Assembly (NCBI GenBank): GCA_031263485.1
Contig: JAISFS010000046.1
Location: forward strand, 22,662 to 86,661
Length of the DNA stretch: 64,000 nt
Direction of reading: 5' to 3'
Source: Deltaproteobacteria bacterium
GTDB taxonomy: Bacteria; Desulfobacterota; Desulfarculia; Adiutricales; Adiutricaceae
The translations under genes were made by a program, and so were the position numbers. Position 1 is the first letter of the stretch, and the number at the start of each line of letters is the position of its first letter. The notes beneath the pieces are model-generated. The model saw only the letters and a list, made by a program, of their open reading frames with translations, did not search any database and had not been told where the DNA came from. Below are positions 22,656 through 33,734 of this stretch, one piece after another.

Positions 22656-25600
22656 TCATGGCGCATCCGGATCCTCTTCCCCCATAGCGTCAGGCTCATC
22701 AACCCCCAACCACGCGCCCGGTTCGCCCATCGTCTCCCGCCGCGACCCGTTCCCGCCGTCCCGGACGGGCCTCACGGCGACATGCGGCAAGCCGTCCGTC
22801 CCGCCCCGTGCCGATCCGTTCCCCCCCGCCCCGGAAACGACCGAGCCGCCCTTACGCGAGACCCCGTATCCGGCGGCATGCGTTACCCCCGACAGGATCG
22901 GGAGCGGAAAGGCCTGCATCCCCGCGATGGGGCCGCCGAATTCGACGTTCCGCAACAGCGCGTCCCTGAGATCCGTCAGATCCGCGAACTGCGTCTCAGG
23001 CGACCCGATCTCGACGGATGCCCGGGAGTTCGCGTCCTGAGGCTCGCTGCCTGTCGAAGCCGATGCTTCCGGCGGCTCACTGATTAGCGGGCCTGCGCCC
23101 CCGCCGCAAGGCGAGCCCTGGGCGGGCGCCTTCTGGGCGGCCGCGTCTGAAACCTCCCCGGAGGCGTAGCGCGGGGCCCCGGCAGGTTCAGTGATCCCGG
23201 CTTCGGGAGAAGCCGCCGGGGGACCGTCCTGCGGAAGCGCCACGCGAGCGGCGATTGCCTTGCTTTCACGCGGGGCCATGGGAGCGGCTTCCGCTGGAAC
23301 GGCCGCCCCGCCGCGCATTCCGTGATTCGAGCCTCCCGACAATTCGACGCCGCAGGCTTCGAACGGAAGAAGACGGCCCGCGAACGGCGGAGCCGGCGTC
23401 TCTTGCGGATCGCCGCGGGGGAAGTCGCGGCGTTCGCCATCTCCCGCGGTCGTTCCTGGAGCGATGCGTGCCGCGTCGCGAACGATGCCGCGGGTCGGCC
23501 TTTCCGAGGGCTGGTAGTTGGTGATGAGGACCTCCAGGCTCCCGCCCTTTCGGGTGTTGTAGCTGGAGTTCGAATAATCGCTGTCCAGGACGGTGACCTG
23601 GTACTTGCCGCACCAGCCGTACAGAATCCGGTTGCCCTGGCCCTTGTGGGAAAGCACGTTGGAGAGGGCGAAGCTCACCCCCCGAGCGTTCAGGGTGTCA
23701 AGGAGGTCGTATAGGGCGAGCTCCTCGCTCTCGTTCCACTGCTTGAAGCCCCGCTTGCCGTCGTTGTAGTTCGCCTGGGCTATGAGATAGGGCGGGTCGC
23801 AGTAGACCATATCCCCGGGGCCTAGCCCGGAGACGTCGGCCTCCGAGAAGTCCCCGGCGGTGAAGGTGATATCCGCCGACTGGATGCGATCGATGAAGGC
23901 CTCGAGATTCCTGCGCATGGTCGGGCTGAACCTGCTCCGGCCCCTGCCGAAGGTGTTGTTGTACTGCAGGCGGCTGTTGAACCTGAACATGTAGTTGAAC
24001 GAGTGGCAGGCCAGGGTGAATAGGTCCACCGGGTCGCCAGTGGCGTTGTAGAAGCTCCTGAAGGCCTGGTATGCCCTGTCGTTGTCCTCTGAGAGGCCGA
24101 AAGTCCTGATGCGTTCCTCGATCTGCTCCAGGGCCTCCTTCTTGTCCGTCGTCTGGAAGGCACGGTACATGCCGATGATCTTGACGTTCAGGTCGTTGCA
24201 GACTACCCGGGCGGCGGGCGCGTTGATGCCCACGTCGCAGCCCCCGGCGAAGAGGTCGACCAGCGTGCCAACTCCCTCGGGGAAGCGCGGCAGGATCTGC
24301 GGGAGCAGACGGTGCTTGCCCCCGATGTAGTTGAAGGGGCTCTTCAGGTACTCGCGGCAGGCGACCAGCCGCGGGGTAGGGCGCAGGGGCGGCAACGGGA
24401 GCGCCTGCGTTGGCGGGAGTGGCGGCGCGGGGGACGGTGGCAGCTCCGCCTTAAGCGACTTGACCGCCGAGGCCGGCCTGACCGACCGGAGGATACCGGG
24501 CCTGAAGCCGGCCAGGCCAGGGGAGAGGCCCTGCGAGTTCCAGCAGCCCTCGCCCGGAAGCGAAACCGCTCCCGGGCCCGTTATTCCGCTGTCCAGCCTG
24601 GCGGCGAAGTCGTCAAGAGCCTCCAGAGACCCTGACTGGGTCACGGGGCATCGCGCCAGCCTGCGGACCTTGCGCACGTAGAAGATGTACTCGGAAAGGT
24701 CACGTCCGTCCTGTTTCATGCGGGAGCTGTAGCGGCGGTATGGGGTCTCGTAGCGCCTGAAGCTCCCGGACGCGCCGTGGCGCCTCATGATAGCCTCCAG
24801 CCGCTCTGACGGCATCAGGCCCTCGGCGCTGTAACTCACGATGATATGCCGGAACCTGGCCTCGGCTATGAGGTCATCGAAGGCCGCCTCCACCTCGGAG
24901 CCGACGCAGAATGCCGAACCCGCCCCCGGCGAATTCCGCAGGCCGGTGACGCCCTTCACTTCGGGCGAATCGTAGCGGGACACGGTCTCCAGCACGTGGT
25001 AATTGGCGCCGTACTGCCTGCAGGTATACGGCGGGTCGACGTAGAGGATCTCGCCCTCGATCTCGCGGACCAGCAGGTTGGCGTCCATATTGTAGGAGCG
25101 GTTCTCCAGGCCGTTGTCCACTATCTCCAGGTTGGCCAGCTCGAAGGGCCTGAGCGCCCTGCATTCCCAGTACTTGAGGAATGCCCCGTAGGTGCCCGCC
25201 GTGTTGGACACGCTCGGCACGCCCTCCACGAGGCGGGCCAGCAGGTGGAAGTATTCCGCCTCGTCGAGCAAGCTGTCCCTGCGCCACACCTCTATGGTGT
25301 GACGGATGAAATCCATCCGCCTGGCGTTGTCACGGGTGAAGTACATGCGCCCGTCCCGGGGCCACTGTCCTGCCGGGACGCACCCGCACGCGCCCACTCC
25401 GGCCGAAGCCGGAGGCGCGCCGCAGACGGGGCCGTTGGCCCCCGGCCAGTCCTTGACCGGGGAGTAGTTGTTGGTTATGGAGAAGGGACACTCTTCGATC
25501 TCGCCGAATGCGGTCTTTTCCAGGTAGATCTTGGGATTGGCTATGCCCTTCCTGGACTTCAGCACCGCGAAGGTCGGAGGGGCGTTGGCCTCCACGGTGG

Positions 25601-25790
25601 CCTTCTGGATCACGTAGGAAAAGTGCAGGATGTCGTTCGAGATCACCTGGTAACGGCGCTTGAAATATCGGCCCACGCTCCCCGTGCCGGAGAATATGTC
25701 GCAGAACAGACCTCCCCCGGAGGGGGCGTGCTCGCTCACCACCCTGTCGATGGAACCCAGCAGCTGCGACTTCCCGCCGATGTAGCGCAT
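22656..25790 (-). CDS. Fused dual D12-class DNA adenine methyltransferase (M.FokI-like arrangement) with long low-complexity C-terminal tail
   Basis: First domain MRYIGGKSQLL...FCDIFSGTGSVGRYF...ILYVDPPYTCRQY; second domain SPFNYIGGKHRLLPQILPRFP...VDLFAGGCDVG...MVYCDPPYLIAQANYNDGKRGF...SLEVLITNY. ATG at 25790 is the likely start rather than 26288. Confidence 0.9.
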   Translation of the reverse strand: MRYIGGKSQLLGSIDRVVSEHAPSGGGLFCDIFSGTGSVGRYFKRRYQVISNDILHFSYVIQKATVEANAPPTFAVLKSRKGIANPKIYLEKTAFGEIEECPFSITNNYSPVKDWPGANGPVCGAPPASAGVGACGCVPAGQWPRDGRMYFTRDNARRMDFIRHTIEVWRRDSLLDEAEYFHLLARLVEGVPSVSNTAGTYGAFLKYWECRALRPFELANLEIVDNGLENRSYNMDANLLVREIEGEILYVDPPYTCRQYGANYHVLETVSRYDSPEVKGVTGLRNSPGAGSAFCVGSEVEAAFDDLIAEARFRHIIVSYSAEGLMPSERLEAIMRRHGASGSFRRYETPYRRYSSRMKQDGRDLSEYIFYVRKVRRLARCPVTQSGSLEALDDFAARLDSGITGPGAVSLPGEGCWNSQGLSPGLAGFRPGILRSVRPASAVKSLKAELPPSPAPPLPPTQALPLPPLRPTPRLVACREYLKSPFNYIGGKHRLLPQILPRFPEGVGTLVDLFAGGCDVGINAPAARVVCNDLNVKIIGMYRAFQTTDKKEALEQIEERIRTFGLSEDNDRAYQAFRSFYNATGDPVDLFTLACHSFNYMFRFNSRLQYNNTFGRGRSRFSPTMRRNLEAFIDRIQSADITFTAGDFSEADVSGLGPGDMVYCDPPYLIAQANYNDGKRGFKQWNESEELALYDLLDTLNARGVSFALSNVLSHKGQGNRILYGWCGKYQVTVLDSDYSNSSYNTRKGGSLEVLITNYQPSERPTRGIVRDAARIAPGTTAGDGERRDFPRGDPQETPAPPFAGRLLPFEACGVELSGGSNHGMRGGAAVPAEAAPMAPRESKAIAARVALPQDGPPAASPEAGITEPAGAPRYASGEVSDAAAQKAPAQGSPCGGGAGPLISEPPEASASTGSEPQDANSRASVEIGSPETQFADLTDLRDALLRNVEFGGPIAGMQAFPLPILSGVTHAAGYGVSRKGGSVVSGAGGNGSARGGTDGLPHVAVRPVRDGGNGSRRETMGEPGAWLGVDEPDAMGEEDPDAP

Positions 25791-26536
25791 CGCCCGTGTT
25801 ACCCCGCCTCGGCGGCCGACGGCGCCGAAGGCCGCCCGCTTCCGTAAGTCCAGAGCCTGTCGGGTCCGCCGCGGCGCATCGCCGCTGGAGGCCCGGGTGA
25901 GCCTAAGGCCGCCGGACCGGTGGCCAGATGGGATGCCCGAGGGCGCGGAATCGCTCTCCGCGGAACAGCCGGAACAGCTGGGGCGCCGGAGCGGGAAAGC
26001 CGGCCGCCGCGCGCGGGCGTCAGACTGGCATTCAGTTGCCTGGGGCCCGGCCCGACGCATGGATGTTGCCGCAAGCGGAGAAGACGGAGATACGCCGCCG
26101 ACTTTCCGCGCCGGAGCCCCGACAGGCAGATGATGGCCACCGCGAATGCGTAGACCCGCCGACGCGAGGCCGACAAGGCCGGTACGGGTCGGGACTTCGA
26201 CCGAACGGCTGATGGCCGATGCGGTTGAGGGACGGGGAGCCGTCGGCGAGCTCCCGCGATTCCGGGCGGACGTGATTCCGTCGGCCACAAAGGATCGCCC
26301 TCATGCGCCAGTGGTGATACCCACGCATATTACCGCAAGTCAATGCGTCTTGGAAGAGGCATCGAAACGATGAAGCGCGTCGGCATCGCGGGGAGGCCGA
26401 AAGGCGCGGAAACAGGCCGCCGCTCCCGCGTCCGGAAACTCCTGGAGGCTGCCTGCGGCGGCTTCGGGCGTTAGACGCTCTGCGCGCCGCGGAGAACTTG
26501 CGGGCCAAGGCCTTCTCTAGCCCGCAACGACGCCGT

Positions 26537-29283: not shown

Positions 29284-29979
29284 TCAGGGGCTGACCAGGA
29301 GGAAGACGGCGAGAGTCCCCTTGAGCTGGTCCAGAAGAAGCCTGTAATCCTTGCCATCCCTGGTTATGATCATGCTGTCGCCAGGCTCCATGGTCCTGGC
29401 GACCCTCTTGCCCGCATCGAGGTGCTGCACCCTCACCGTTGCCGTCCTGTCAAGACTGTCCACGTCCATAACGGAAAGCAGCACCTGACCGTCTATGATG
29501 AGCCTGCTGTCCTCGTTGCGGACGGACAGGCGGGCAAGGGAAGGCGATCCCCCGGTCGCGGCGGCAGGGCCCCCGGAAGCGGCGGCGGAGCCCGCGATGC
29601 CGCCGTCCGCGGCGGCCGCGTCCCCCAGAAAGGCCTCGGGGGCCTCCCCGCCCGGAACGGGGTCCAGACCCTCCCCGCCGGACAGGCCGTCGGCATCGGA
29701 GGGAGCCCCGATGCCCGCAGGGCTCGCGGGGCTCGCGGTCCGATCGGCCGCAACGGCCTTCAGCGAGTCAAGCTCCTTTTGCAGGAGCGTCCGCTGGAGC
29801 ACGAGCGACCCGTTTTCGGCCTCGAGCCGCTGGATCTGCCCCTGCATCCTGGCGATGCGGGCCTTGGAGGCCTGGCGTCCGTTGTCGAAGCTGAAATAGT
29901 AGATGAGCCCGCAGAGCGCGAAAAGGGCCACCAGCCTCCAGATCCTGTCGAACGGGGGACTGGCGCGGGGCTCGCGCAT
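29284..29979 (-). CDS. Hypothetical single-pass membrane protein with coiled coil, Ala/Gly-rich linker and C-terminal conserved-looking domain
   Basis: WRLVALFALCGLIYYFSF TM segment, ARIARMQGQIQRLEAENGSLVLQRTLLQKELDSLK coiled coil. Stop/start region abuts the upstream REC gene (29979). Confidence 0.7.
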   Translation of the reverse strand: MREPRASPPFDRIWRLVALFALCGLIYYFSFDNGRQASKARIARMQGQIQRLEAENGSLVLQRTLLQKELDSLKAVAADRTASPASPAGIGAPSDADGLSGGEGLDPVPGGEAPEAFLGDAAAADGGIAGSAAASGGPAAATGGSPSLARLSVRNEDSRLIIDGQVLLSVMDVDSLDRTATVRVQHLDAGKRVARTMEPGDSMIITRDGKDYRLLLDQLKGTLAVFLLVSP

Positions 29980-30887
29980 CAGAGGATGAGCCCCAGGGCA
30001 ACCCTTGAGATGAACTCGGCGGAGGAGCTGTCGGTGGACGGCTTCAGGATGCAGTCGTCCACTCCGTTGCCCGGGGCCAGGATTACGGGCAACTTTTCCA
30101 GGCCCGCCGTGCAGACGACGAAGTACAGGGGCAAGAACTTGCGGTTGAACTTCATCTCCTGGCAGAAGTCCACCCCGGTGCGCCCGTCCTCCAAGGCATA
30201 GTCGCTTATGATGATGCGCGGCTTCTCGGCCAGGGCCAAGTTCACGGCCTCGTCCACGCCAGAGGCGGTCACCACCAGGAAATTCGAGTCCTCCAGGAGC
30301 TTTTTCAGCATTTCCCGCTGGTAGCTTGAGTCGGAGAGGACGAGCACCTTGCGTGGCTGGGCGTTCACCGGGGTGACGAGGAGGTAGTTTATGAGCTTCT
30401 GGGCGCCAGCCAGGAGCACCTTGGCCCTGGCCAGGGCCTGGCCGGTGGCCTGGAGCTCCTCCTCCATCTGCCTGTCCCCCTCGCGACTGTGGCGGATGCG
30501 CGCCGGGCCACCGCAGATGCGGGCTATGATGTTCAGAAACGCCGCCTTCTGCACGTCCGCCCTGACGAAAGCCGCGGCCCCCTCGTTGAAGGCCATGGTC
30601 AGGTTCTCCAGATCCGTGCCGCTCAAGTCCGCGAAGATGAAGCCCGTCGCGCGGCGCTCGTCCGTAACCTCCTGAAGGACCTTCACGCTCCAGGCGTCCT
30701 CGGCCACGTAGTCCATGACCACCACGTCCGGGCGCACGGCGAGCACCGCTCCGGCCATGTCGGAGTCCGAGGCGCCGGGCTGGAGGTCAAGGGGCGGGAG
30801 AACCGTGAACTTGCCGCCAGTGAGGAAGCCTTCCAGCTTCTGCTTGAACGGCGCATCGGAAAGGTGGAGGAGTATCGTTGCGGTCAT
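29979..30887 (-). CDS. Response regulator-like protein with two receiver-like domains
   Basis: MTATILLHLSDAPFKQKLEGFL...PDVVVMDYVAED...; second domain RKVLVLSDSSYQREMLKKLLED...PRIIISDYALEDGRTGVDFCQEMK...DDCILKPSTD. Confidence 0.78.
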   Translation of the reverse strand: MTATILLHLSDAPFKQKLEGFLTGGKFTVLPPLDLQPGASDSDMAGAVLAVRPDVVVMDYVAEDAWSVKVLQEVTDERRATGFIFADLSGTDLENLTMAFNEGAAAFVRADVQKAAFLNIIARICGGPARIRHSREGDRQMEEELQATGQALARAKVLLAGAQKLINYLLVTPVNAQPRKVLVLSDSSYQREMLKKLLEDSNFLVVTASGVDEAVNLALAEKPRIIISDYALEDGRTGVDFCQEMKFNRKFLPLYFVVCTAGLEKLPVILAPGNGVDDCILKPSTDSSSAEFISRVALGLIL

Positions 30888-31150: not shown

Positions 31151-33346
31151 TCAGTCCACGGGAAGGTTCTCGTACTCCAGGACGTTGTAGAAGCGCTTGA
31201 GCTGGCGCTCGCAGAACTTGTTCACCTCGTCCGGCGTGTGGGTGGAGGCGAACATGAGCTTCAGCTTCTCGGAGGCCAGTCCCTTCTCGATGCGGTCCAG
31301 GCTGGGCACGGTGTCGATGAGGTCGCCCAGGAGCGCGATCCGCTTCACGATCAGGTACGCGACCAGGCTTGTCTCCTGGAAGGAGGGGCCGATCCGGAAC
31401 ATCGACTGGTAGACCCGAGTGCCCTTTGTGTTTATCTTGGCGAAATAAAGGATGGTGCCGAGGGGCGAGAGGTGGAAGTTCTCGTCCTCCGGCTGGGAGT
31501 CGGGCTTCTCGCGGGCCTCGGTGCGCTTGTAGCGGCCGAGCTCCGCCAAGAGCTCCGGGTCGCGCACCTCGTAGCCGCGGCCGGCCCTGATTTCGATTAT
31601 GCCCTGCTCCATGCTCTTCACCGCGTCAAGAAGCAGATCGATGACATCCTGGGTGACCTTGAGCTCCTTCTCGCGGACCTGGTCCAGGACCGTCTCCACC
31701 TCGTGCACGAAGGTGCCCACGTTGGTGAAGCCGGTCATGATGAAGTTGCCCTTGATCGAGTGGAAGTGCCGGAAGATCGTGTTCACCCGCCTGATGTTGT
31801 CCGGGTCCTTCTCCAGCTGGAAGATCTCCTCGTTCAGATCGTTTAGGATATTCTGGATCTCGACGAAGAACTCCTCGGCCATGGACTCGTCCATCATCTC
31901 CTGGGGCCGCGGGATGGCCGCAGGCGGCGGGCCTTCCCCGGGGGCCTCCGGCTCGGGCGCTTCGACCGCGTCCGCCTCCGGGGGCTCATCCCCCACGTCC
32001 ATCATGGAGTGGTCCATGAAGGTGCCGTCCGTGGCCTCCATGATCCGGCCGCTGGACATGGCTATGAGATCGAAGGGGTCCAGCACCATGCCCAGCTGGC
32101 TCCCGCCCAGGATGGTGGTCCCGGCGACGCCGCGCACGCTGAAGATCTCGGGGAGCGGGATCAGGACCAGCTTCTGGGGCCGGATGAACTCGGAGACCTT
32201 GAGCGCGATTCGACCGTTCTTGGCGTCTATGATGATGACGGGCAGGTAGTCCTCGAACTCGGTCCCCGCGAGCGGCGTGCCCGTGAGGAGCCCGCGCAGG
32301 TCGTGCAGCGGCACGATGGAGCCCAGGTAGGTGATGCTCTCCGTGCGCTCCATGGTCGTATGCACCTCGCTCGCAGAGAAGGACTGCGTGGCGACCACGT
32401 TCCCGATGGGCACGGCATAGTAGCTTTCGCCGGAGCGAATGATGAGCGCGTCCGTGATGTTGACGGCGGAGAGCTGGGGTATCTTGTAGGTGAACACCGT
32501 GCCCTTGCCGGGCGCGGTGTCGATCAGCACCTCGCCGCCCAGGTTCTCGACCGTGCTCTTCACGACGTCCATGCCGACCCCGCGCCCGGAGATCTCGGTC
32601 GCCTCGGAGGCGGTTGAGAAGCCCGGCTGCATTATGAGGTTCCAGCACTCCTGCGGGGAGATGGCGTTGGCCGCGGAGTACGGGAGGAAGCCCTTCTCCA
32701 CGGCGACCTGGCGGATGCGAGCCTCGTTCAGGCCATGTCCGTCGTCCGAGACGGAGACGTAGGTGAATCCCTCCTTCTTGTAGGCGGTGAGCGTGAGCTG
32801 GCCCGTGGGCGACTTGCCCGCGTGCTTGCGGTCCAGCGGATCCTCGAGGCCGTGGTCCACCGCATTCCTTATCTGGTGGGCCAGCGGCTCGTAAAGGCGC
32901 TCTGCCACGGTCTTGTCGACAAGGGTGTCCTCGCCCACGATCTCGAAATTCACCTGGCGGCCCTTCTTCTTGGCCAGATCGCGCACGAGCCTCCGGAACC
33001 TCAGGAAGGTCTCCCGGATGGGCACCATGCGGATGTCCATGACCAGGTGATGCAGATCGGAGGAGATGCGGTTCGTGGTGAGCGCCACGTTCTTGATCAT
33101 CTCCATCGAGTTCTTGTCGATGTTCGCAGTGGAGGTGGAAAGGTGCCTCTGCAGGATGGAGATGTTCGATGCCGAGATGATGATCTCCCCGGTCAGGCCC
33201 AGGAGCCTGTCCAGGTGGGAGATCTTGACCGCCATGCGGTCCAGCTCGGGCGGGGCGCCCTGAGCCGCCGCGGCGGGGGCGCCGGCGGGCGGCGCCGCCT
33301 TCGGATCCGCGGCCTGCTCGCCTTGGGAATTACCACTCATGCTCAA
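31151..33346 (-). CDS. CheA-like histidine kinase with permuted architecture: dimerisation/HATPase/CheW-like domain first, Hpt domain at C-terminus
   Basis: N-term LDRLLGLTGEIIISASNISILQRHL (P3), QIRNAVDHGLEDP, GRGVGMDVVKSTVENLGGEVLI (P4), CheW-like P5, then IFRHFHSIKGNFIMTGFTNVGTFVHEVE (Hpt). Confidence 0.92.
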   Translation of the reverse strand: MSMSGNSQGEQAADPKAAPPAGAPAAAAQGAPPELDRMAVKISHLDRLLGLTGEIIISASNISILQRHLSTSTANIDKNSMEMIKNVALTTNRISSDLHHLVMDIRMVPIRETFLRFRRLVRDLAKKKGRQVNFEIVGEDTLVDKTVAERLYEPLAHQIRNAVDHGLEDPLDRKHAGKSPTGQLTLTAYKKEGFTYVSVSDDGHGLNEARIRQVAVEKGFLPYSAANAISPQECWNLIMQPGFSTASEATEISGRGVGMDVVKSTVENLGGEVLIDTAPGKGTVFTYKIPQLSAVNITDALIIRSGESYYAVPIGNVVATQSFSASEVHTTMERTESITYLGSIVPLHDLRGLLTGTPLAGTEFEDYLPVIIIDAKNGRIALKVSEFIRPQKLVLIPLPEIFSVRGVAGTTILGGSQLGMVLDPFDLIAMSSGRIMEATDGTFMDHSMMDVGDEPPEADAVEAPEPEAPGEGPPPAAIPRPQEMMDESMAEEFFVEIQNILNDLNEEIFQLEKDPDNIRRVNTIFRHFHSIKGNFIMTGFTNVGTFVHEVETVLDQVREKELKVTQDVIDLLLDAVKSMEQGIIEIRAGRGYEVRDPELLAELGRYKRTEAREKPDSQPEDENFHLSPLGTILYFAKINTKGTRVYQSMFRIGPSFQETSLVAYLIVKRIALLGDLIDTVPSLDRIEKGLASEKLKLMFASTHTPDEVNKFCERQLKRFYNVLEYENLPVD

Positions 33347-33734
33347 AAACTCGCGCGAGTACGATGTTTACCATTTCGGCGGTCGGGGGCTTTATGAGGT
33401 AGTCGTCCGCCCCCAGCCTCAGGGCCTTGAAGATATACTTGTAGTCGGCATGGGTGGAGAGGATCACCACCGGGATCGACCTGAGCTTCGGGTTGTTCTT
33501 GAGCATCTCCGTCAGCTCGAAGCCGTCCATCTCGGCCATCACGAGGTCGCTTATGACCAGATCGACCGGCTTGTCCTTCAGGATCTCAAGCGCCTCCACG
33601 CCGTTCACCGCCTCGGACACGATGAGCCCCATGTTGGCGAAAAGCTCCTTGATCGTCTTGCGTACGGCCTGGTAGTCATCGACCACCAATACCGATTTGC
33701 CTTGCCAAACCTTGCCGTCGATCTGCTGAGCCAT
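33330..33734 (-). CDS. CheY-like single-domain response regulator
   Basis: SVLVVDDYQAVRKTIKELFANMGLIV...VDLVISDLVMAEMDGFELTEML...IPVVILSTHAD...GADDYLIKPP. Its 3' end overlaps the CheA-like start by 17 bp. Confidence 0.93.
   Translation of the reverse strand: MAQQIDGKVWQGKSVLVVDDYQAVRKTIKELFANMGLIVSEAVNGVEALEILKDKPVDLVISDLVMAEMDGFELTEMLKNNPKLRSIPVVILSTHADYKYIFKALRLGADDYLIKPPTAEMVNIVLARVFEHEW

Follow-up and report, generated by a model that had tools for sequence, protein, structure and literature searches.

A CheA-type protein with the circularly permuted domain order P3-P4-P5-P1-P2, conserved in the Adiutricaceae

Introduction

CheA is a textbook five-domain kinase whose domains follow one another in the order P1-P2-P3-P4-P5, and the point at which P1-P2 is attached is usually taken as fixed. 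Outward from the core, starting at P3, P2 is encountered first and P1 next. P2 is optional and is absent in over half of CheAs.

The main text of a survey of 13,673 CheA sequences (PMC10782961) describes proteins that lack P2, contain extra receivers, duplicated domains or N-terminal receivers, or are bipartite, and estimates that CheA-receiver hybrids, in which the receiver is mostly C-terminal, constitute ~34% of CheAs. These hybrids share with the protein studied here the presence of an extra phosphotransfer module after P5; however, their P1 is N-terminal and a receiver is appended, whereas in our protein the Hpt domain itself follows P5. Bipartite CheAs, as described in the same text and as also seen at locus L114 of genome G312 (see below), likewise have a P3-P4-P5 core to which no P1 is attached ahead of P3, but their Hpt is encoded by a separate gene; in the permuted protein, a single chain continues from P5 into P1 and P2. 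The CheA3/CheA4 pair of Cereibacter sphaeroides (PMC10782961) likewise deviates from the standard way of joining P1 to the core; that system consists of two proteins, of which CheA3 still has an N-terminal P1, whereas ours is a single protein. The main text of the survey does not mention a CheA in which Hpt follows CheW. According to that text, the CheA core was defined by composition and not by order, and the protein would therefore be filed as a CheA variant and not as a canonical CheA. A search of the literature for a permuted CheA returned nothing, and the papers retrieved with "circular permut" concern gene order.

Here, we analyzed a 64,000-nucleotide stretch of contig JAISFS010000046.1 (assembly GCA_031263485.1, family Adiutricaceae), referred to as the window, which encodes a CheA-type protein with the order P3-P4-P5-linker-P1-P2. 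It shares with the canonical CheAs of Thermotoga maritima and Escherichia coli the five domains, the catalytic motifs, the phospho-histidine motif and the P2 fold. It differs from them in that the tether leaves from P5 instead of from P3, and in that P1 lies nearer to the core than P2.

Results

A single open reading frame contains the five CheA domains in rotated order

The gene lies in one uninterrupted open reading frame (positions 31151-33346), as the original prediction had it, on the minus strand of the window. The listed 731-aa version opens with a TTG codon at 33346, but the start codon that is conserved is an ATG at 33340. With this start, the permuted cheA gene spans 31151..33340, encodes 729 aa and shares 11 nt with cheY. 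Pfam analysis of the 731-aa version revealed the order H-kinase_dim (40-105), HATPase_c (151-291), CheW (300-429), Hpt (489-581) and P2 (650-712). The same five domains were found in identical order in the orthologues L034, L063 and L029, which are 64-72% identical to it.

The assembly from which the window derives is fragmented (337 contigs), and a frameshift, a chimeric assembly or a fusion of two neighbouring genes in the source MAG might in principle have generated such an arrangement. However, the single open reading frame and the order recur in 37 genomes belonging to two families, including the closed chromosome CP026657 of Smac51. The identical order in all intact orthologues excludes chance or a frameshift as the cause, and we consider the probability of an artefact negligible.

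The kinase core is complete and no Hpt domain precedes it

The P3 dimerization domain (33032..33229, minus strand, as are all features given below) scored 21.3 bits against PF02895, slightly below the Pfam cut-off of 23; its orthologues in L034 and L029 score above the cut-off and that in L063 just below it (22.8). From P3 onwards, the protein aligns with T. maritima CheA (1b3q, E 3e-67 over P3-P5). This alignment also covers the P4 kinase domain (32474..32896; PF02518, E 3.6e-15), whose ATP-binding N, G1, F and G2 boxes are intact: H155, N159 and D162, the DDG motif and GRGVGMDVV are invariant across 16 sequences that are 64-91% identical. P4 is followed by P5, the CheW-like receptor-coupling domain (32060..32449; PF01584, E 4.6e-13), which is retained in every copy of the permuted CheA. 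A P3-P4-P5 core was thus present at the N-terminus in the usual internal order, in agreement with the original prediction.

An additional N-terminal Hpt domain would have contradicted the permutation. None was found: P3 begins near residue 32, and the ~31 variable residues ahead of it leave no space for such a domain, so that a hidden N-terminal Hpt was rejected.

The C-terminal half consists of a linker, P1 and P2

P5 is followed by a linker of ~54 aa (31883..32059) that is rich in Pro, Ala and Glu; the original prediction had placed an acidic, Pro-rich linker here. The linker has no Pfam match, is variable in the alignment and is disordered in the AlphaFold model (pLDDT ~25). The full-length model, built with 16 close orthologues, was poor (pLDDT 54.6), and its global arrangement was unusable.

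The predicted Hpt domain with the motif HFHSIKGNF was indeed present after the linker. This P1 domain (31604..31882; PF01627, E 2.7e-11) matches the CheA P1 structures 2ld6, 1tqg and 1i5n, and aligns with them across the phospho-histidine motif. The putative phospho-acceptor, His527 of the 729-aa protein (codon 31760..31762), aligns with the histidine of the H-S/T-I/L-K-G motif of CheA P1 domains, and residues H527, K530, G531, H546 and E549 are invariant in the 16 orthologous sequences.

The last domain (31154..31495) had been described as resembling the region adjacent to P2 of some CheA proteins. The relationship to CheA held, but the domain itself is P2, the response-regulator docking domain. 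It scored 25.4 bits against PF07194 (cut-off 23); of the orthologues, L034 exceeds the cut-off, L063 equals it and L029 falls slightly short of it. When residues 616-729 were modelled separately with 16 orthologues, AlphaFold predicted with high confidence (pLDDT 90.9) a beta-alpha-beta-beta-alpha-beta fold preceded by a helix. The first-ranked match of this model in a Foldseek search of the PDB was 1u0s_A, T. maritima CheA P2 bound to CheY (E 1.3e-4, probability 1.00, TM 0.85 on target), and this was the sole match below 0.001. A search of the PDB with a sequence profile of this domain alone found no relative, whereas the structure comparison did.

With P2 as the last domain, the arrangement P3-P4-P5-P1-P2 rotates the canonical order exactly: the blocks P1-P2 and P3-P4-P5 are each kept intact, and P5 precedes P1-P2. 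The proposal of a circularly permuted CheA therefore stands in a stronger form than originally stated. P1 is the first and P2 the second domain outward from P5, which places P1, joined to P5 by the linker, proximal to the core and P2 at the distal free end.

The permuted cheA gene is part of a conserved four-gene cluster

The conserved cluster consists of cheY, the permuted cheA, a gene for a response regulator with two receivers and a gene for a membrane/coiled-coil protein. The cheY gene (33330..33734) encodes a single-domain receiver (PF00072, E 6.4e-28), adjoins the start of cheA, and was found directly upstream of it in every locus with enough upstream sequence. Downstream lies the gene of the 302-aa tandem-receiver regulator (29979..30887), in which PF00072 matches the second receiver and the N-terminal receiver is degenerate; in the Smac51 copy, which begins 2 nt past the end of cheA, two PF00072 stretches were detected. 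In the search of the class, the regulator profile and the permuted cheA were found in exactly the same 37 genomes. The product of the fourth gene (29284..29979) has a hydrophobic helix at its N-terminus and contains a coiled coil. This protein has no Pfam match, its C-terminal domain included, and is conserved after the regulator in most loci with flanking sequence. Further upstream, cpoB and two divergent genes are present in most home-family loci with flanking sequence, and are absent from that position in Smac51 and the Adiutrix loci. No MCP, cheW, cheR or cheB gene was found within the conserved cluster.

Elsewhere in the window, two D12-class adenine methyltransferase stretches lie within a single 1210-aa open reading frame (22656-26288, minus strand), whose long N-terminus may not be real.

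Distribution of the permuted CheA

Among 64 genomes representing the class, 37 carry the permuted cheA. These are 35 of the 37 home-family genomes and both genomes of a sister family; none of the 25 others has the gene. In one of the carriers (G426), it is split over two contigs. We also scanned one genome per species over GTDB with lineage-specific peptide patterns, which would miss distant relatives, and obtained 29 orthologous loci, nearly all of them labelled as Deltaproteobacteria MAGs or Ca. Adiutrix; the scan also recovered the closed chromosome CP026657. The habitat of Adiutrix is the termite gut, and based on this and on isolate names we read these as samples from termite guts.

A MAG labelled Planctomycetota contributes one of these loci (L034), in which a permuted cheA of 64% identity has the usual arrangement with cheY and the regulator gene; the locus may have been misbinned or transferred. 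A Lachnospiraceae protein (L038) whose match spanned query residues 40-687 was considered as a distant permuted relative and rejected, since it is canonical, with Hpt at 5-224 and then the core.

Among 396 genomes drawn over the phylum, in searches whose sensitivity drops for very divergent CheAs, a full-length match or one spanning CheW to Hpt was found in only seven, all of the home family. P1 was located ahead of P3 in every canonical CheA examined that had a detectable P1 (~30 distinct proteins). A tblastn search of 72,556 plasmids with the CheW-Hpt junction gave no place covering 80% of the query. The architecture was thus found neither elsewhere in the Desulfobacterota sample nor in the main text of the survey (PMC10782961). 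Coverage beyond Desulfobacterota consists of the pattern scan and the plasmids, and we confine the statement of rarity to the phylum.

In G312 (contig C6, locus L114), a CheA core occupies a 400-aa open reading frame and is immediately preceded, in the same orientation, by an Hpt stretch; this looks like a bipartite CheA.

Chemotaxis genes in the genomes carrying the permuted CheA

The carrier genomes checked have MCP genes and flagellin, and the MCP and CheW genes are located elsewhere in the genome, outside the cheA cluster. Most carriers also contain two or three canonical CheAs (three in the genome of the window), and the permuted CheA may therefore serve a side pathway. In G423 (1.5 Mb, 81% complete), no CheA core besides that of the permuted protein was detected. 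This genome encodes nine MCPs, a flagellin and two CheW proteins, and its other Hpt match is a 308-aa Hpt-STAS-like protein and not a CheA. G022, the sole genome of the family with neither MCP nor flagellin, also lacks a CheA, and the permuted module is absent as well. The module is absent too from G429 (83% complete), which has kept three canonical CheAs. Arguments drawn from G423, G022 and G429 are limited by the incompleteness of MAGs.

These data bear on whether the same permuted CheA might have a role other than taxis, in which the regulator and the membrane/coiled-coil protein of the cluster would transmit its signal and CheY would be a branch or a phosphate sink. The composition of the cluster, which is devoid of MCP, cheW, cheR and cheB genes, the inseparability of regulator and kinase across genomes, and the canonical CheAs that accompany the permuted one in most genomes fit such a role. 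We nevertheless consider it rather unlikely, given the retention of P5 in all copies, the gene content of G423 and the absence of the module from G022. The gene content of the carriers favours, without proving, a receptor-coupled kinase.

A different arrangement would be that Hpt-P2 is a relay that receives its phosphoryl group from another kinase and that the core acts on the P1 of some canonical CheA, similar to the CheA3/CheA4 split of Cereibacter. Split CheAs are reported to work in nature (main text of PMC10782961), and further CheAs are available in most carriers. However, intact P1 and P4 are fused in all copies, and G423 has no second CheA core that we could find, which makes this arrangement very improbable.

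Origin of the permutation

In a phylum-local tree of core sequences, the permuted proteins form one group with full support (SH-aLRT 100) and a long stem. Their nearest canonical kin had no reliable placement, with weak or open forks, and no ancestral unpermuted locus, in which the regulator would lie beside a canonical CheA, was found in the genomes of the class. We also compared the scores of canonical CheAs against the permuted protein, and those for the P4 core and for P1 were correlated (Spearman 0.60, p 0.004). This is compatible with both halves stemming from a single CheA, a tandem duplication followed by loss of the outer halves being one conceivable route, but overall conservation of the sequences could also yield such a correlation.

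Discussion

The order, motifs, conservation, gene cluster and co-occurrence described above are observed, and array coupling, kinase activity and the phosphoryl acceptors are inferred. We consider it probable that the protein is a working, receptor-coupled CheA that underwent a natural circular permutation at the level of domains, with the P1-P2 tether hanging from P5. It would dimerize via P3 and dock into receptor/CheW arrays via P5. His527 of P1, on the flexible tether at the end of P5, would be phosphorylated by P4. Phosphorylated P1 would then serve as donor for the CheY of the neighbouring upstream gene and probably also for the tandem-receiver regulator; P2, as the chain terminus, would recruit the receiver. 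According to work cited in PMC10782961 and PMC10653900, a P1 domain freed from the kinase remains functional, and a geometry in which P1 is tethered to P5 should therefore permit its phosphorylation.

We tentatively put forward the possibility that this is the first natural circular permutation of CheA to be described, one that is order-wide, exchanges the distances of P1 and P2 from the core, and is able to serve as the sole receptor-coupled CheA (G423). An evolutionarily stable rotation constitutes a natural experiment on CheA. If the protein signals via receptor arrays, neither the attachment point of the tether nor the order of P1 and P2 would be needed for receptor control, which bears directly on models that give the position of P1, or P1 sequestration beneath the array, a part in controlling the kinase. 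The kinase and the tandem-receiver regulator could, in addition, be used as a marker module for the Adiutrix lineage of termite-gut bacteria.

Other chemotaxis-related genes were observed in the genomes analyzed. The genome of the window encodes a 380-aa CheD fused to a C-terminal receiver (L107:3487-4629, G000:C86), beside a canonical cheA and several MCPs. A ~300-aa protein encoded in G423 (L135:1987-2910, minus strand, contig C31) begins with an Hpt domain and ends in a stretch with weak STAS similarity; it belongs to no CheA, and similar short Hpt frames are present in G431, G017, G430, G425 and G010. Finally, in home-family genomes (e.g., G006:C159, G011:C170, G018:C157 and G023:C98), flagellin N-terminal domains are located in open frames of ~1,650-1,720 aa, suggesting giant flagellins.
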